Positions 5,065-18,633 of a DNA stretch of 21,292 nucleotides are shown here, one piece after another (position 1 is the first letter of the stretch; each line of letters starts with the position of its first letter). The notes below the pieces were generated by a model. That model had not been told where the DNA came from, did not search any database, and worked only from the letters and a program-made list of their open reading frames with translations. The translations under genes were made by a program, and so were the position numbers. Source of the DNA: a virus; the IMG/VR virus record IMGVR_UViG_3300025293_000055, positions 1-21,292 of that record; one strand, written 5' to 3'.

Positions 5065-5340
5065 ATGACACCAAGGGAAAAATTGGAAAAAGAGGGGGTG
5101 CAACTGCGCGGTTGGAACAGCCAACATGCTGAGTGCCCCAAATGCCAGGAAACGAGAATAAAGCATCCAAGGGATCGCCCGTTATCAATTACTGTAAAAA
5201 ATGAGGGGGTCACCTGGTATTGTCATCACTGTCAGTGGTCTGGAGGATGGAGTGAGCGCCGAGAAATTTTTCGAAAATCGCGGAATATCGAAAAGAACGC
5301 TAAAAGCATTTGGCGTAACGCACGGAATAAAAACGTTTAG
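5065..5340 (+). CDS. Zinc-binding domain of a split primase-helicase
   Basis: This 91-aa frame holds the N-terminal zinc ribbon of a T7 gp4-type primase: C24-P-K-C27, then WYC53-H-H-C56-QWSGG. The zinc domain recognises the template trinucleotide for primer synthesis. After about residue 62 the frame loses similarity (ERREIFRKSRN and so on) while the +1 frame continues the expected protein. The useful part is therefore about 5065-5250, and the tail to 5340 is probably non-native. ATG 5065 has only a weak TAGG site. Either a +1 shift joins it to the downstream frame, or it is made as a separate zinc peptide, or one base is extra in the sequence. It diverges from the phosphoesterase gene, with the strong opposing promoter between them. 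Confidence 0.6.
   Translation: MTPREKLEKEGVQLRGWNSQHAECPKCQETRIKHPRDRPLSITVKNEGVTWYCHHCQWSGGWSERREIFRKSRNIEKNAKSIWRNARNKNV
5242..5254 (+). promoter_or_regulatory. Internal Shine-Dalgarno plus GTG start for the TOPRIM-helicase frame
   Basis: GGAGG (5242-5246), five bases, then GTG (5252) is an ideal ribosome site placed exactly where the zinc domain ends and the second frame becomes meaningful (VSAEKFF). T7 gene 4 has a similar internal start producing the short 4B helicase without the zinc domain. Here the second start lies in a different frame from the first. Confidence 0.6.
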
Positions 5341-6661
5341 CGATGGCGAAAAAAGAGATTGTGTAATTTTTAATTATGGGGATAATCGATACAAGGCGAG
5401 GTCAATTGTCGGACGCGAGTGGACGCAGAGTCCGGGGGGCGTTCAAAACTTCTACAATTTGGAAAATGTATTAGGTGGAAGTTTAGACGCAGTTTTTATA
5501 ACGGAAGGCGAAATCGATGCTCTTTCTCTATGCGAAGCTGGGTTACCGTATGATTCAATTTTATCTGTTAAAGGCGGGGCTCCTTCCCAAGAGTCTGAGG
5601 AGCCGCATAGGAATACGGGCTACCAGCACGTCCTTGATGCTCTCAAGAGAGGTCTCCATACGGTCGAGCGGTTTGTGCTGCTTACGGACAACGACGCCCC
5701 TGGACGTGCGCTGAGGGCAGATTTGGCAAAACTGTTGGGGCCGGCAAAATGCTGGTACGTAGATTGGCCGGAAGGAATTAAGGATGCGAACGAACTTCTG
5801 TGCGCCAAGGGAAGTTTGTCAAGTTACGTTCACGCGGAACAAAAAATCTGGCCGGTCGAAGGTCTTTTTGCTCTGGATAGCTTACCGGAGCCGACTGCTT
5901 TCGTTCGTTGGGAGCCAGGATTTGGATGGGGTGACAAGCTGGCGTTCAGCCCAGGCACCGTATCCGTTGTCAGCGGCCAACCAAACCACGGAAAATCGCA
6001 CCTTATGGCGCAGATCTGGTTTCAGATCGCCCAACGATATTCGATAAATGTTTGCATTGCTGGGTTTGAAACGCGAGCAAAACCGCACTTGCGAAGGTAT
6101 TTCCGCTCTTTTTATACGAATAAATTAGAAAAGGATATTTCTAGCGATGAGGTAGCCTTGGCGGACCAATTTATCAACAACCACTATACGTTTGTCGTGC
6201 ACCCGCAACTAAGGCCTAGTTTGGATTGGTGTTTAGACACGTTTGAGGTTGCTGTCGTACGACACAACGCTCGTGTGGTTCAAATTGACCCTTGGAATAA
6301 ACTGGAGAGCGACAGAGGTGAACTTTCGGAGACGGATTACGTTGGTGTGTGTCTTGATAAGCTTGCTGATTTTGCAAGGGATCTCTCGTGCCACGTTCAA
6401 ATTGTGGCCCACCCATCCAAACGCGGTCATTACGAATCTCGAAAAGCTCCTCCAGAATTGGAGGACATCCATGGCAGTAAAAATTGGGATAATCGCCCAG
6501 ATCTCGGACTCGTTATTTGGAGACCCGCGATGTATGACGAAGGGCAAAGGCAGACAGATTGTGAACTCTATGTCAGGAAATCAAGATACGAAGAACTAGG
6601 GTATCCTTGTAAAATGGATTTATTTTACGATTTAAAGTGCGGAAATTTTATAGCGCGGTGA
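5252..6661 (+). CDS. TOPRIM primase plus DnaB-type helicase (T7 gp4/Twinkle-like), zinc domain in other frame
   Basis: 469 aa from GTG 5252. After an AEKFFENRGIS linker helix, the TOPRIM part shows E85 and D89 (TEGEIDALSL) and D146/D148 (LLTDNDAPGRA), the metal-binding residues for primer synthesis. The helicase part shows Walker A GQPNHGKS (residues 242-249), Walker B VVQIDPWNKLE, and motif IVAHPSKR, as in T7 gp4 and mitochondrial Twinkle. These proteins form hexameric rings that unwind DNA 5'-3' at the fork. The frame opens at 5201 but has no likely start before 5252. Without the zinc domain it could unwind DNA but would prime poorly. The stop is 3 bp from the converging late-operon end. 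Confidence 0.88.
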   Translation: MSAEKFFENRGISKRTLKAFGVTHGIKTFSDGEKRDCVIFNYGDNRYKARSIVGREWTQSPGGVQNFYNLENVLGGSLDAVFITEGEIDALSLCEAGLPYDSILSVKGGAPSQESEEPHRNTGYQHVLDALKRGLHTVERFVLLTDNDAPGRALRADLAKLLGPAKCWYVDWPEGIKDANELLCAKGSLSSYVHAEQKIWPVEGLFALDSLPEPTAFVRWEPGFGWGDKLAFSPGTVSVVSGQPNHGKSHLMAQIWFQIAQRYSINVCIAGFETRAKPHLRRYFRSFYTNKLEKDISSDEVALADQFINNHYTFVVHPQLRPSLDWCLDTFEVAVVRHNARVVQIDPWNKLESDRGELSETDYVGVCLDKLADFARDLSCHVQIVAHPSKRGHYESRKAPPELEDIHGSKNWDNRPDLGLVIWRPAMYDEGQRQTDCELYVRKSRYEELGYPCKMDLFYDLKCGNFIAR

Positions 6662-7702: not shown

Positions 7703-7867
7703 TTAATACTTTTTCTTTGAAGATTTTTTCTGAACGCCGAGTCGCGAAGTAATACGCTTAACGTCTTGGTCTGTCATAACCCCACCACCCACAACTTTGT
7801 TACGCATCGCGCCATAAAGATGGGTTAGTGAACTCTTGGTTTTGTTATTTTTGGGTTTGTGTTTCAT
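7703..7867 (-). CDS. 54-aa protein sharing a segment with the 622-aa virion protein
   Basis: A short gene with a good ribosome site (AGGA six bases before ATG 7867), eight bases after the stop of the 979-aa gene. The product is basic at both ends (MKHKPKNNKTKSS and KKSSKKKY). Its middle, KVVGGGVMTDQDVKRITSRL, is nearly the same as EVVGGGVLTEQDAERVISRL in the 622-aa virion protein about 3.4 kb away, and the DNA is about 84% identical over 63 bases. It may be a detached copy of that segment with its own function, such as binding the same partner. I know no family for it. Confidence 0.65.
   Translation of the reverse strand: MKHKPKNNKTKSSLTHLYGAMRNKVVGGGVMTDQDVKRITSRLGVQKKSSKKKY
7736..7803. repeat. 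Duplicated segment, copy 1 (partner at 11136-11203)
   Basis: Bases 7741-7803 and 11141-11203 are in the same orientation and about 84% identical by eye, starting with GCCGAGTCGCGAA and including CCACCACCCACAACTT. The differences are mainly at third codon positions, so both copies appear to be kept as protein sequence. Confidence 0.8.
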
Positions 7868-7875
7868 TGGATTTC

Positions 7876-10815
7876 CTAAAATTGATAAGGTTGAGGATAC
7901 GATTGCATATGTTGGGAAGCGCGCTCTGAGGCAGACTGTAAAACGTCATCAAATTCGCCGATTTGTTCCGGCGCAACGGACAGGGCGGTTTTCATCGAAG
8001 CGTACCGCATAAGGCTGATTTCTTGTGCTGCTGTTAATTTCTTTAACGCGTCCACACGTAATAGCCTAGCGGCAAATTCCGGTTCTTTTAATGCCTGCTG
8101 CAATATATTAAATGACTGCTCGGCGTCCATGCTAAGAAGACGTTGGACTAGCCCCGAAGCCGATTTCCGCATAACATTAGCCCACATTAACCCATGTGCC
8201 CCAGGATTCAATCGCGCTCCCAAAATTATCCCTAGGGTGCCTCCTATCGTAGACAATTTTTGTACCGTGTCTGATCCCCCTGCCTCTGCGATTCCCAGAC
8301 TTTGCCTCATATTTACAGTTAAACCGGCTTCGACCTGCTCAAGAATAGCTACTCCTCCAGCGCCGTAGATTTTTTTGAGAGCGGCCTTTTTATTTTTGAG
8401 AAGCGTCCTTAGTGGGCGGGCGATAACTTTAGGGTCTCCCACTACGTCACGCGCAGCATTAACATACGGGGCAACCGTATCCAGTATAACCTCCGTCATT
8501 GCTGACCTGACACCTCGAACAGCGTTTCCGGTGGGGTCTTTTTTTGCTTTTGCCATTATTTTAGCGGCTGCGGAAACTGGAGATTTTGAAGTTAGAACGG
8601 ACCTTGCTTGAGCCGAAGGCTCTCCATTAATATATTTTGCCGCAGTTGATTGCACCTTAATATTCGTAATTCGCGTCCGTAGCCCCTTTTGCGCCGCTTC
8701 TGCTAATTCCCGGCCGGTTGCAGCGTTTGACATCTGTTCCTTGAGTTCAGGAAATTCGTCCAGCACCCTGCTGTGCTTTTCTACGAACCGCAACCCAGCT
8801 TTTGGAAGAAATGTTCCGCGATGGTCTGTAATCGACGCCGCGTATAAAGCCTTTAGAAATTCCTGAACAGCATCGTCAATTTCAGCGGCCCCCTCATCCC
8901 CTGCGGCCTTACGCATTGCCTGAAGGCCTAAAACCCCAAAAGTTGGGTCTTCAATCATGTTGTAAAGGGTTCTTTCTGGAGATATGATAAAATCACGCGA
9001 GGTGTCGTATTCAAACAGCTTTCCTATCGGACCCCTGGTGAAAGTGTCATTTAGTGACTTGCTGAAATCCCGCGCTTTTGTGACAGCGCCCAAAATTGGA
9101 TCGTCATCTATTTTTTCCCAGCGAGCGGCTTTGCCCGTGCCCACCCTTCTGACGGGCACGATGTCATTAAACAGCGGATCTAAAAGTTCTGTACGCAAAA
9201 TCCTGGCGCGATTAAATCTGCCCGCCGCTCTTTCCGCCGCGATAGCATTCAAAACCCTGCTGCGAAGAGCAAGAATCTCCCCTATAGACTCCACATCATC
9301 CCACATGGGCTTGGCTGTTTTTACCGGAACGCCTAATTCATTTATCGCGCCCTCTGGGAGATCTGGTTTTCGACTAAGTTCGTAAAAGATCGGGCTGTAC
9401 TCATTTGAACTTTCAGCCTTAAACTTCGACTCTATGGCCAGTCTTGCCCGCCCAATTATTGCGGAAACGTCATAATTTTGATAACCTATGGCGGTCCATT
9501 CCGTTTTTTCTCTTTCTCGGGCGTCGTCAAGTGCACTTTTTAATCGGCCCCTGGCGATTTGGCTGGCCTCAAAGTCAGTGTACTTTGCGCCCAGTTTGTT
9601 GATTTCTGTCCTTGAAGCGTTGATTGCCTCACCCACCCTGGCCTCAACAAATTGAACTGCCCGGTTTATTCTGTCTCCAAAAAACTTAACGGAAAATTCA
9701 GAGGTGTCGTCTCCCGGAGCTAATGTTTTAATTGCCGAAAGCAACGATTGGTTTGACCGCGTAAGGTAATCCTGACTGCGTGCAACCAATTTCGGGTCTG
9801 CCGCGTCTACCCCGCGCTCCAGGGCTATAAGGCCTGGGTCATTGTATGCCCGCCCGGTGGACGGCTCCCCATACTGAGGTAAATCTACGTCTCCCCACTC
9901 CATGCGTTCAATTGTTGTGGGGTCTGCGGCGGCACGAAAAATATCTGGTATACGTCGTTCCTGCGCCGCCCGGCTAATCCCAATATCGTTGGCTAAACCT
10001 CGGAATGCTTTGCTAGTTAAAGCTAATGTGCTGGCTGGCGCAAGCCCGCCCACCAACTCGCCATAAGGGCGTGCCCCTTCGCCAAATGACGAAAATAATT
10101 CACCAGTTGCCCCGATAGGCCAAGCTATGCCCAACTCCATTAAAGCGGTACGGTACGGGTGGCTCCTAACAGCGTTAAGCATTGGCTCAAAAAATCTTCG
10201 CTTAGTCTGTAGAGCAATATGTTGAGCCACAGGGGTCAATTTAGCAAAACCACCCAGTATGCCAAACCCTACCAGAGCTTCCCCCGTAACGCGGCCTATG
10301 GACCCCATATAACCAGAATCCGGGGTGGCCCCTACGCCAGTCCACTCGAAAAGACGTTTTAAACTTTCGCTTCCCCCAAGGGGTTCGTCATGGCCAAGAA
10401 TAATATTCGCTAGATCAACAGGTGCACCAATGAGATGAGATATACCAAGATTAACACCTTCGCCAAAATTCTCAACGATACTTTTCCTGTTCCATACGCT
10501 CTGGCCGAATTGTTCAAATGGGTTTGGCCCTGGTTCGGGTGGATCAAATTGTTCAAAGGGGTTTTTCCCCTCTGCGGTTACGGCCGTGTCAGCAGGTTTC
10601 GCATCATACTCGGAAAAGAACCGGACCTTTATCCTCTCATCAGGCTCCACATCATAAGGCTCCACATCATATGAGGGATCTGGAACAGTGGGTGGATTAA
10701 ATTGTTCAAAGGGGTTTGCGCCCTCTAAGGCCGTGTCGGCCTCAACCCAAGTTTCATCATCTCGTTCATCATACGAGACTTCATCAATAAAAGGGGTATC
10801 TCCCATCATTTTCAC
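7876..10815 (-). CDS. Large internal virion / DNA-ejection-type protein with NPFEQF repeats
   Basis: A 979-aa protein, the largest in the window. The acidic N-terminus carries three NPFEQF motifs (residues 34-39, 85-90, 98-103) and a YDVEP pair (about 49-58). A block IGAPVDLANIIL with GGSESLKRLFEWTG (about 129-160) recurs, as I recall, in large virion proteins of alphaproteobacterial phages. Gly/Ala-rich stretches near 180-270 could contact membranes, and the rest is mostly helical. It is third in line after the 187-aa and 622-aa proteins, like T7 gp16 after gp14 and gp15, which form the ejection channel. I see no transglycosylase motif at the N-terminus. The GTG start at 10815 overlaps the upstream stop as GTGA; ATG 10809 or 10806 is also possible. 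Confidence 0.7.
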   Translation of the reverse strand: MKMMGDTPFIDEVSYDERDDETWVEADTALEGANPFEQFNPPTVPDPSYDVEPYDVEPDERIKVRFFSEYDAKPADTAVTAEGKNPFEQFDPPEPGPNPFEQFGQSVWNRKSIVENFGEGVNLGISHLIGAPVDLANIILGHDEPLGGSESLKRLFEWTGVGATPDSGYMGSIGRVTGEALVGFGILGGFAKLTPVAQHIALQTKRRFFEPMLNAVRSHPYRTALMELGIAWPIGATGELFSSFGEGARPYGELVGGLAPASTLALTSKAFRGLANDIGISRAAQERRIPDIFRAAADPTTIERMEWGDVDLPQYGEPSTGRAYNDPGLIALERGVDAADPKLVARSQDYLTRSNQSLLSAIKTLAPGDDTSEFSVKFFGDRINRAVQFVEARVGEAINASRTEINKLGAKYTDFEASQIARGRLKSALDDAREREKTEWTAIGYQNYDVSAIIGRARLAIESKFKAESSNEYSPIFYELSRKPDLPEGAINELGVPVKTAKPMWDDVESIGEILALRSRVLNAIAAERAAGRFNRARILRTELLDPLFNDIVPVRRVGTGKAARWEKIDDDPILGAVTKARDFSKSLNDTFTRGPIGKLFEYDTSRDFIISPERTLYNMIEDPTFGVLGLQAMRKAAGDEGAAEIDDAVQEFLKALYAASITDHRGTFLPKAGLRFVEKHSRVLDEFPELKEQMSNAATGRELAEAAQKGLRTRITNIKVQSTAAKYINGEPSAQARSVLTSKSPVSAAAKIMAKAKKDPTGNAVRGVRSAMTEVILDTVAPYVNAARDVVGDPKVIARPLRTLLKNKKAALKKIYGAGGVAILEQVEAGLTVNMRQSLGIAEAGGSDTVQKLSTIGGTLGIILGARLNPGAHGLMWANVMRKSASGLVQRLLSMDAEQSFNILQQALKEPEFAARLLRVDALKKLTAAQEISLMRYASMKTALSVAPEQIGEFDDVLQSASERASQHMQSYPQPYQF
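10537..10717. repeat. Dispersed 28-bp repeats encoding NPFEQF
   Basis: GGGTGGAT(C/T)AAATTGTT continues into CAAAGGGGTTT at 10537-10564 and 10690-10717, with one mismatch in 28 bases. A third, diverged copy lies at about 10507-10527. They encode PNPFEQF-type motifs on the minus strand and so are coding repeats. Confidence 0.8.
10642..10671. repeat. Perfect 15-bp tandem repeat, two copies
   Basis: AGGCTCCACATCATA occurs twice in a row (10642-10656 and 10657-10671) and encodes the YDVEP YDVEP pair. Perfect identity suggests recent slippage duplication. Confidence 0.9.
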
Positions 10816-12680
10816 TTTAGGTATTGTTTTGCCGGGGTTGGGTTAGCTTTATTCCCATAATGTTCATTAAAATACGTTTCATACCGCTTTGGGTCTTCCA
10901 GTAATAGTTTAATGGCTTCTTCCGTAGGTGCGCGCGTTAATATGCCGCCAAAAAGGTCGTCGTAGTCAACTTTGATTGGGGCTCTTGGAACATAGTTAAA
11001 CTGACCGTATCCCTGAGAAACCTGCATATTCCAAGCCTTTCTGTCAACGTTGTTGTAGGTATCGACTTTTTGTTTCATTATTGATCGAATCGCGTCTGCC
11101 ACAACCTCTGGGCTTCGAAGAGCGCTAACATCGTTGCCGAGTCGCGAAATAACACGCTCAGCGTCTTGTTCTGTCAAAACTCCACCACCCACAACTTCCT
11201 TGCGGAATCTGCCGAGAAGCCCCTGAAGTCGGCCACTTTGAGTCATGTCAGTTAGTTGTTGACTTGTAAGTCTATTACCGAAAACTGTATTAAACTCTCC
11301 AACAAATTGGCTTGCTAAAAGTCTCCAGCCTTGGGAAGAGTCTTTGACCTTTTTCCAGTAGTCAACTAAAGCTGTAATTGATTGTTCATTAAAATTAATT
11401 CTTTCGTGGAGTTTTATAAACTGTTGTCCAGTGAGAGTGGAGCGAGCAAGCGCCGTTGGGGTTCTTCGTTGAGCGTTTATGGGGAGAGGGATCATTTGGC
11501 CGCCCCCAGATGGGCGAAGGTAAAATTCTCCTTGATTAAATATGCCCTCGCCCAAATACCGTCCGGCATTGTCAACATAAGGCCCCAATGGTCTCATGGA
11601 CCGCAGTTCCCCGGATTTTACGCGCCATTTGAATTTGGCTTGATCGTCCTCTCGCCTGAGTTTCCACTGATCGTCACTAATGTTAGCGCGGGTTTTACGC
11701 CACTCAAATACATTGCGTTCGTGTACTCGTTGTAAACGCCGTGCCTCATCCAGTTGATTTTGATTTTTTTCTTTTTGATTATAAGTTTTTACTTTTAAAT
11801 CGTGCGTTTTATTATATTGTGAAGCGTTTTGGGCTAGTTTTTTGTTAAATTGCTCTTCTTTAAGTTTTGCTTGATCCGTTTTGAATTTGAACAGGTTAGC
11901 TTTGTGGTCACGTTCAAGTCTGTCCACCTTTTCTTTATACTCTTGTTCGGTAAGGTACCTGGCATCTAGTTTGGCCGCTCTGATTTCCCGCCACTCATTA
12001 TCCAACTTTTCTTGTTTTGTTATCCGCGCTTCTCTTGTTTCTGCTAATTCGGCGGTTCTGTCTTGAGCAGCGTCAGCTGCAATATCTCGGCGAGCCCGAC
12101 GTTCAACATCTTCACTCCTTTTTTGTTTGTTAAAATCTAATATTTTTCTCTTATGTTCAAGTGTTTGTCGGCGGTATTCCGTGGTCGCCTTTTTAGACTC
12201 TCGTACTTCTTCACGGCGCAACCTGGCTTCTTCGTCAGCCGCTTTGTCCCTGCCTGCTTGGCGCTCAATCTCGTACGCCTTTAAAGCGTTAACCTTACGG
12301 CCGGCCTGGATTGCGTTTATGGCCTCCCCATACGTTTTCTTGCCGTCAAATGTAGACAGCAGTGCCCTGGTAATATCCCTCACTTCAGGGGCTTTGCGCG
12401 ATTGATCCAGCAGCAGACGAGTGACGCGGTTTTTTGCGGAGATAATAGAGTTCTGCAAGTCACCGGGTGGCACACCCGTTCGCTCAGTTACTACATTTCC
12501 GGCCTTGCGGCCTTCGATCATTTTCTTTACGTCGGGGCTTAACTCGATATCCCCAGAATATTGGGCTCGTCGGTAATCGAACTCGCTCCCCCCATAAAGC
12601 CTGCTGGGCAGATCTCGTCTTCCAGGTGTCCCAAGTAGTTGATCTATAGCAAGTCCTTCAAGAGAAGTATTTTGTACCAT
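10812..12680 (-). CDS. Internal virion protein with long coiled-coil middle
   Basis: A 622-aa protein. Residues 1-120 form a mixed N-terminal domain. About 120-365 is a very long charged helix rich in R, K, E, Q and D (for example DEEARLRREEVRESKKATTE). A C-terminal domain (about 400-622) begins at LTGQQFIKLHERINFNEQS and contains EVVGGGVLTEQDAERVISRL (about 492-514), the segment shared with the 54-aa gene. It lies between the 187-aa and 979-aa genes, the position of T7 gp15 in the ejection complex, and the long helix fits a periplasm-spanning tube component. Assignment is by position and architecture, not clear homology. It overlaps the upstream stop by one base (TAATG) and the next start by 4 bp. 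Confidence 0.65.
   Translation of the reverse strand: MVQNTSLEGLAIDQLLGTPGRRDLPSRLYGGSEFDYRRAQYSGDIELSPDVKKMIEGRKAGNVVTERTGVPPGDLQNSIISAKNRVTRLLLDQSRKAPEVRDITRALLSTFDGKKTYGEAINAIQAGRKVNALKAYEIERQAGRDKAADEEARLRREEVRESKKATTEYRRQTLEHKRKILDFNKQKRSEDVERRARRDIAADAAQDRTAELAETREARITKQEKLDNEWREIRAAKLDARYLTEQEYKEKVDRLERDHKANLFKFKTDQAKLKEEQFNKKLAQNASQYNKTHDLKVKTYNQKEKNQNQLDEARRLQRVHERNVFEWRKTRANISDDQWKLRREDDQAKFKWRVKSGELRSMRPLGPYVDNAGRYLGEGIFNQGEFYLRPSGGGQMIPLPINAQRRTPTALARSTLTGQQFIKLHERINFNEQSITALVDYWKKVKDSSQGWRLLASQFVGEFNTVFGNRLTSQQLTDMTQSGRLQGLLGRFRKEVVGGGVLTEQDAERVISRLGNDVSALRSPEVVADAIRSIMKQKVDTYNNVDRKAWNMQVSQGYGQFNYVPRAPIKVDYDDLFGGILTRAPTEEAIKLLLEDPKRYETYFNEHYGNKANPTPAKQYLK
11136..11203. repeat. 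Duplicated segment, copy 2 (partner at 7736-7803)
   Basis: This is the copy inside the 622-aa gene, about residues 492-514. See copy 1 for the alignment. Confidence 0.8.
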
Positions 12681-16644: not shown

Positions 16645-18633
16645 TTACCCGCAGTGTAGGATGCACAAAACTCTTGGAACCCCGTCCGGGTCATTCGTAT
16701 GCGGCGCAGCTAGTGCCTGTGCCACTGAGTTCGTGTCTTTTGTATCACCCGTGGAATACAGCGTTCCATCACCGTTGCTTGAGAGCCAATCGCCTTTTGA
16801 GCAATCACCAGTGATAAGTGCGCCGTATTCACCGCTTAAACCGACGCCCCAAACAATCTGGTTTCCACTGTCTGCTTGTTGTCCTGCGTAGATTCCATAT
16901 GACATTTCGTCTTTTGTATCTGAAACCTTAATTCTTAAAAGACGTTTGTTATTATACTTTTCTATGACATGTTTCTCACGAACCGCTGGGGAAACAACCT
17001 CTGTATCCCAGACTGGCTGACTATATGTTGCTTGTTCACCATCAACCATTTTTGGTGAACCGTCTTCATTAAACAGTAACACGTCCTCAAAGACATCTAC
17101 TTTGATTGCCACCTCGACAACTTTTTCGCATAGCTTTCCGTCAATTTCTTCAACTATCACCTTCTCTTTTGTCGAATCAACTGTTCTCTGCTTTTTCTTG
17201 GTTTTGGCCTCAATGTCAACAAACCACTCATCACCAAGATCCTTATCATCTACGCGCTTTTCACCGACACCAATGAACTCACCAGTGTCATTGTTGTAAA
17301 TACGCTCAACGAGCCATTCACAGTATTCATCAGTTGACTTTACAATAGTGCCGATTTTTGGGTTTTCTTCAGGAGCGTCAGTTAAAGACCACTGAGAGGG
17401 GTGGGCACCAACAAACGCGGTCAGCGATACGGTAGTTCCACTTACAGATATATCGCCCTCTTCGCTAGTAGCTTGATGGAAAGAAATCAACTTCCCGTCG
17501 TTTGTCAGGCGGTTTAACTGAAGGGGTTCAGAGCCTGCGCGCGTATGCATCGCAGTGCCCGCAGCCTGCAACTCGTGCCCCGCTGTGGCCAATGCGCTGC
17601 TGGCCTTACCAACGAAAAAATGACCGGCATTATTGAGCGCAGCCATGATAGACGTGCCGTTGGCATAAAACCCGATTAGGTTGTCTGCGTGGTCCCCCCT
17701 GATCGACATTACGTCGTTGTCATCCGGGTCTCCAAAAAATATGCCACCTTCCTGATCTGTAGGAGTGAGGATTGATATTCCACAACCAGCACTGTTCTCA
17801 AGGACGAGTTCATCACCAGTTGAGCTTGCTGTGACGCTCCCTGCCGTTGCGCTATGCACATGCAGTTGACCGTCGCCGTCTAAGTTGCTCCCAACAACAA
17901 GAGTCCCAGGCATTTCTACCCGCGTCGTTCCTGTGGGGATTTCAATTACATCTGCATCGGCATCGTTTTTTATTGTAACATCGTTTGTCGAGCCTTGGCC
18001 GGTGACGATAATTCCCTCAGCGGCAGTGTAACCAATTGCAGCGTTATCACTAGCTGCCGTATCGCCATCAGCGTTCAACGTCGCTGCTGTCAGGTCTCCG
18101 ACAACATCAACATTTGTCGTACCAGTTGCAATTGTTATAACAGCGGCGTCAGCATCGTTTTTTACTGTCACGTCTGACGTGCTTCCTTGACCAGTAAGGA
18201 TGAGTCCTTCCGCAGCCGTATATCCCATTGCAGCATTATCACTAGCTGCTGTATCGCCGTCAGCGTTAACGGTCGATGCCGTAACATCACCAACGATGTC
18301 TACGTTTGTCGTACCAGTTGCAATGGTTATAACAGACGCATCAGCATCATTTTTTATTGTTATATCCGAAGTGCTTCCTTGACCCGTTAGAATAAGTCCT
18401 TCAGCAGCCGTATATCCCATTGCCGCGTTATCACTAGCAGCAGTATCGCTAGTCGCATTGACAGTGCCACCGCTAATATCGCTGGTCGTCGTGATCGCAA
18501 CTGGAACGCCGTCGAAAAAATTAGTGAGTGTGATTTTCTTTGTCGCTGACGCGCTGTCATCGACAATAGCCAGCAGATCTGCCGCCGCCTGGGTTGAGAG
18601 AGCGGAGAGGTCTGAAATTTTTACATTAGCCAT
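16645..18633 (-). CDS. Tail fibre / appendage protein with triplicated 64-aa repeat
   Basis: A 662-aa protein. The start MANVKISDLSALSTQAAADL is the particle-anchoring type seen in many phage fibres. Three tandem units of about 64 residues follow (57-248), each with DTAASDNAAMGYTAAEG, TGQGST, IKNDAD and a TGTTNV strand, as expected of a trimeric beta-helical shaft. The middle (about 250-410) looks like a receptor or shaft domain, and residues 430-560 are Lys/Glu/Val-rich. The C-terminal part (YGIYAGQQADSGNQIVWGVG, GALITGDCSKGDWLSSNGDG, and final VLCILHCG) matches a terminal domain common in phage fibres, possibly related to self-cleaving peptidase-G2-type chaperones. It would bind the host receptor. 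Its place between capsid and adaptor differs from T7. Confidence 0.8.
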   Translation of the reverse strand: MANVKISDLSALSTQAAADLLAIVDDSASATKKITLTNFFDGVPVAITTTSDISGGTVNATSDTAASDNAAMGYTAAEGLILTGQGSTSDITIKNDADASVITIATGTTNVDIVGDVTASTVNADGDTAASDNAAMGYTAAEGLILTGQGSTSDVTVKNDADAAVITIATGTTNVDVVGDLTAATLNADGDTAASDNAAIGYTAAEGIIVTGQGSTNDVTIKNDADADVIEIPTGTTRVEMPGTLVVGSNLDGDGQLHVHSATAGSVTASSTGDELVLENSAGCGISILTPTDQEGGIFFGDPDDNDVMSIRGDHADNLIGFYANGTSIMAALNNAGHFFVGKASSALATAGHELQAAGTAMHTRAGSEPLQLNRLTNDGKLISFHQATSEEGDISVSGTTVSLTAFVGAHPSQWSLTDAPEENPKIGTIVKSTDEYCEWLVERIYNNDTGEFIGVGEKRVDDKDLGDEWFVDIEAKTKKKQRTVDSTKEKVIVEEIDGKLCEKVVEVAIKVDVFEDVLLFNEDGSPKMVDGEQATYSQPVWDTEVVSPAVREKHVIEKYNNKRLLRIKVSDTKDEMSYGIYAGQQADSGNQIVWGVGLSGEYGALITGDCSKGDWLSSNGDGTLYSTGDTKDTNSVAQALAAPHTNDPDGVPRVLCILHCG
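17893..18465. repeat. Three tandem ~192-bp coding repeats in the fibre gene
   Basis: The units span about 18465-18274, 18273-18082 and 18081-17893, each coding for about 64 residues. Protein identity is high between units 1 and 2, while many third codon positions differ. Unit 3 has drifted at its end (TGTTRVEMPG). This is an intragenic duplication of shaft repeats. Confidence 0.85.

Follow-up and report, generated by a model that had tools for sequence, protein, structure and literature searches.

Results

Organization of the primase-helicase locus

The DNA stretch analyzed here (hereafter the window) was the 21,292-base virus record IMGVR_UViG_3300025293_000055, which is a fragment. Two overlapping open reading frames were found on its plus strand. 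The first one, ORF A (5065..5340; 91 aa), was assigned as a putative stand-alone primase zinc-binding protein from the ORF list, its homology to the zinc domain at the N-terminus of fused relatives and an AlphaFold2 model, and the core of the zinc-binding domain, C24-C27 ... C53-C56, is encoded at 5134..5232. The frame of ORF B, +1 relative to ORF A, is open from 5201, has a GTG at 5252 and ends at 6661. ORF B as read from this GTG (5252..6661; 469 aa) comprises a TOPRIM primase core and a DnaB-like (SF4) helicase, and matches to Pfam, PHROGs and T7 gp4 structures identified it as equivalent to the short form of T7 gp4. The TOPRIM domain with the catalytic TEGE.D and DxD motifs was located at 5495..5800, and the DnaB_C helicase domain at 5945..6601 with Walker A at 5975-5998. 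The original prediction, in which C24, C27, C53 and C56 lay in one frame and TOPRIM plus helicase in the +1 frame, was thus borne out.

The tail of ORF A overlaps the start of ORF B at 5252..5340. A GGAGG Shine-Dalgarno (SD) sequence (5242..5246) was found inside ORF A, within the W-S-G-G turn codons after the last cysteine, followed by an ATGGA spacer (5247..5251) and the GTG start codon of ORF B (5252..5254) located 20 nt 3' of the last zinc cysteine. The GGAGG-N5-GTG that had been noticed exactly at the joint is indeed present at 5242-5254. As the density of GGAGG-N4-9-start in the window was 0.19 per kb per strand, the chance of finding one inside the joint of ~33 nt was below about 1%. 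The comparative evidence, consisting of 43 loci with this layout (window included), is far stronger than this chance estimate.

Domains encoded by ORF A and ORF B

The domain in ORF A and the N-terminal zinc domain of the fused enzymes were homologous (hhalign probability 99.9%, E 9e-31), and C24, P25, C27, R31, L40, C53 and C56 were invariant in 14 split relatives. The N-terminal-type CxxC...CxxC zinc domain is accordingly present as in the T7 gp4-type members, but encoded by ORF A. The AlphaFold2 model showed a confident core (pLDDT 82-90 over residues 1-60) and a loose tail (about 50). Pfam, PHROGs and NCBIfam named ORF A weakly, a Foldseek search with the 91-aa model gave no convincing structural match, and nothing was found when the zinc domain alone was used as a query against viral contigs.

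ORF B matched Toprim_2 (2.9e-9) and DnaB_C (2.9e-8) in Pfam and phrog_239, DNA primase/helicase (9.6e-53), in PHROGs. T7 gp4 structures were its best sequence and fold matches, with Twinkle also among the best structural relatives. The TOPRIM residues T84, E85, G86, D89, D146 and D148 were invariant in 13 split relatives, as were the helicase residues G242, G247, K248 and D346 in the split relatives. Primer synthesis and 5'-3' unwinding by the split enzyme are predicted from these conserved catalytic residues.

Distribution of the split among relatives

Split-type B proteins were used as queries to scan IMG/VR and GTDB genomes, and the relatives were then classified systematically. The 257 related loci consisted of 43 split in +1 (window included), one split in -1, 178 fused in frame and 35 without a recognizable zinc motif. 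Most relatives of ORF B were a single fused ORF, in which the zinc domain is followed by a linker of some 20-40 aa and the core. The sole -1 locus, L272, is a broken prophage gene on a Devosia chromosome, in which the helicase is broken into two frames. The assignment of another locus (L191) as fused was rejected as it relied on a spurious CxxC match; this locus is split.

The original prediction had proposed a search for relatives with the same split, and had regarded close relatives with one continuous frame at the site as contrary evidence. The closest relatives instead shared the split: in the two viral contigs nearest to the window in the first scans, L026 (44%) and L027 (42%), as well as in L052 and L058, the zinc domain lies in the other frame and B at +1. 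Other searches identified two further +1 splits, L360 and Bradyrhizobium phage BDU-MI-1, bringing the +1 total to 45, the window's phage included; its relatives with the split, at least 44 in number, are nearly all linked to Alphaproteobacteria. BDU-MI-1 (KY940711.1) is a sequenced isolate, in which the unannotated zinc ORF of 110 aa (17539-17871; L359:240-572) starts two bases past the end of the preceding gene. The depositors annotated its helicase from 17744, an internal ATG, and the zinc ORF overlaps it in the other frame. The split loci in GTDB genomes were all labelled Alphaproteobacteria except for one MAG (L328), and from these labels the host of the window's phage probably belongs to that class.

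In addition, the contig IMGVR_UViG_3300009605_000401 (L105) encodes a major capsid protein 99% identical to that of the window and could derive from the same phage species. The contigs of near phages obtained by the capsid-based search, L105 among them, gave no primase match.

In a tree of 96 B proteins built by maximum likelihood, a single branch (support 99) separated the split from the fused loci, corresponding to one change. As the split loci formed one clade, the split arose once. The tree had no outgroup root, and the direction was deduced from the wide spread of fused forms outside the clade, which makes a fused ancestor the simpler assumption. The split would have originated from such an ancestor through the loss of most of the linker between the zinc domain and the core, together with a move to another frame at the internal start.

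Start signals of ORF B

In the region from +17 to +29 nt, counted from the last zinc cysteine, a start codon in frame B was present in 35 of the 43 split loci (31 ATG), while frames A and C each had such a codon in one locus. In the 31 ATG-starting relatives, positions -13 to -9 relative to the ATG were GG-rich, which is an SD profile, and the window has its GTG behind a perfect GGAGG. SD-like sequences occurred in 31/43 split loci versus 41/178 fused loci. The residues of the ORF A frame carrying these signals differed likewise: the second glycine codon (GG) was found in 25/43 split and 26/178 fused loci, and an F-Y-D motif (YD/FD-type) in 27/43 and 1/178, respectively. Conservation of an SD sequence and a start codon was thus confined to frame B, as in an overlapping gene pair. 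At the usual place, five of the 43 split loci had no ATG, GTG or TTG; CTG is present in L187 and L281, L268 and L270 have a canonical start only elsewhere, and L198 has none nearby.

The overlap and the constant +1 relation

The spacer from the last cysteine to the R-G-I-S motif, the positions of which are approximate as they came from a simple motif search, was about 20 aa in the split loci (15 in the window) versus a median of 42 in the fused loci. Its length underwent at least 23 changes along the tree, and the frame none. As many of the spacer indels are constrained by B itself, the length changes were not taken as proof of selection on A. The tail of ORF A in the window was open for 28 codons, whereas synonymous shuffles of B gave an expectation of 8 (quantile 0.97-0.98). 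When the same test was applied to all loci, the mean quantile was 0.67-0.70 in the split loci versus 0.57-0.59 in the fused control, and it was counted as weak because the control itself lay above 0.5. Codon conservation in the overlap was raised in two subclades only. Over a region of 90 nt, codon-usage scores were too noisy to place the switch of frame.

In three loci of the Hyphomicrobiaceae type (L298, L311 and L330), ORF A extends inside B for 121 codons beyond the zinc domain, much further than the shuffles would give, and codon conservation was raised. A long functional overlap is possible in these loci.

Comparison with fused enzymes

T7 gp4 is the textbook case of a primase and a helicase in one chain, occurring in long and short forms. 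These forms, of 63 kDa (gp4A) and 56 kDa (gp4B), are both made from gene 4. Translation of gp4B begins at an internal start that has a ribosome site of its own; gp4B is unable to prime, and unwinding is best coupled to synthesis when both forms are mixed (PMC12593628). The comparison with T7 gene 4 drawn in the original prediction therefore holds as to long and short forms by an internal start, with the start out of frame in the window. The domains and their order are the same, the short form beginning just past the zinc domain, and ORF B has the TOPRIM core and the DnaB-like (SF4) helicase in a single chain. In contrast, the internal start of T7 is in frame and a long fused form results, whereas that of the window lies in the +1 frame, so that long and short forms are not read from one frame and the long form is not produced by ordinary decoding. 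A zinc domain joined covalently and in frame through a linker is likewise missing from the window and 42 others, which are split by +1; in the window most of the linker is gone and the zinc domain is a protein of its own.

The fused phrog_239 primase-helicases (L001-L104, L274 and others) share the homologous zinc domain (E 9e-31), and their TOPRIM-helicase is 26-32% identical to that of ORF B. They differ in having one continuous frame (178 relatives) and a longer linker, without the FYD motif or a frame-specific start after the zinc domain.

Alternative explanations of the split

A single extra base had been among the options of the original prediction, and the exact joint sequence was indeed absent from every other viral contig searched, leaving the joint without a second contig. 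However, the 43 loci and the two further cases came from different sequencing projects, including isolate genomes, and had the same split with different sequences. As both close and distant relatives were affected, a base error in sequencing or assembly was excluded; both catalytic domains are intact, which argues against a broken gene. Taken together, error or decay of the gene in the window is extremely improbable. A programmed +1 ribosomal frameshift within the overlap, joining A to B into a full-length primase-helicase either alone or beside the separate products, would agree with three observations: B lies at +1 of A in all 45 split loci that remain when the broken L272 is set aside, overlap of the open frames was seen wherever it was measured, and a few loci lack a canonical B start at the usual place. 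The slip site proposed for it, TTT C at 5269-5272, where tRNA-Phe would re-pair before a CGA codon, is present in the ORF A frame as described (TTT 5269-5271, CGA 5272-5274). Nevertheless, this TTT CGA (5269..5274) was not conserved, being found in 3/43 split loci at differing positions, and no other slip-prone codon was fixed in place at the switch. The start codon and SD sequence were specific to frame B, and the linker of a fused product would be unusually short (about 15-20 aa versus about 42), which favors separate proteins. The split is real, conserved and of single origin, and is not convincingly a programmed frameshift, which we consider unlikely.

The strict +1 relation across a deep clade is still more than independent starts alone require, and counts against a reading as two genes. 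It may be explained by a useful tail of A or by a minor shifted fusion. A dual output, in which mostly separate zinc protein and helicase are accompanied by a minority of zinc-primase-helicase fusion made by +1 frameshifting, is doubtful; if true, the phage would tune the fraction of priming-competent subunits by decoding, where T7 uses two in-frame starts. It is also conceivable, but very unlikely, that A and B are separate and A no longer takes part in priming, leaving B as a Twinkle-like helicase only and A with some other task. Mitochondrial and plant Twinkle resemble ORF B in the TOPRIM-like and DnaB-like helicase fold, although in a single chain, and animal Twinkle has lost primase activity (PMC9860392); the T7 short form without the zinc domain has no primase activity either (PMC12593628). 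Against such a loss, the catalytic residues of TOPRIM do not vary within the clade, the four cysteines of A are invariant, and A adjoins B in every split locus.

A probable two-subunit primase-helicase

The layout is highly probably that of two overlapping genes for a two-subunit, T7-gp4-like primase-helicase, with A presumably acting in trans on B. This option of the original prediction gained support from the same split across relatives and the start and SD sequence specific to frame B. ORF A would be translated from the ATG at 5065 into a small zinc-binding protein, and ORF B would be initiated separately at the embedded GGAGG and the GTG at 5252, giving a TOPRIM core with a hexameric helicase equivalent to the short gp4B form of T7. 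The zinc protein is presumed to bind and act in trans on the B ring, recognizing primer start sites and thereby conferring primase activity. A precedent for primase crosstalk in trans, judging by the title of the study, is provided by DnaG, in which the zinc domain works across subunits (Corn et al. 2005, cited in PMC6163395). The likeness of DnaG to the window lies in this crosstalk, while the zinc domain of DnaG is covalently attached and not a separate gene.

In the open-access literature, we did not encounter any description of a T7-type primase whose zinc domain is detached. The clade in which this domain has left a T7 gp4-type enzyme, and which has the isolate BDU-MI-1 as a member, lends itself as a natural experiment to asking whether primer sites can be recognized in trans and why T7 keeps two forms, and also illustrates a route from a fused enzyme to a two-gene system via an internal start. 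It further reveals an annotation gap, as the zinc gene was missed even in an isolate genome.

Other features of the window

Several repeats were observed elsewhere in the window. A 69-nt direct repeat (86%) lies at 7736-7804 and 11136-11204, through which a 54-aa ORF (7703-7867, minus strand) repeats a segment of a 622-aa ORF (10812-12680, minus strand). Similar short stretches (76%) at 1796-1829 and 7886-7919 encode DT(V/I)AYVGK-like peptides in small ORFs with a common RTGRF motif. The region 17924-18499 contains three 192-nt tandem repeats, tail-fibre-repeat-like in appearance, within a 662-aa ORF (16645-18633, minus strand).
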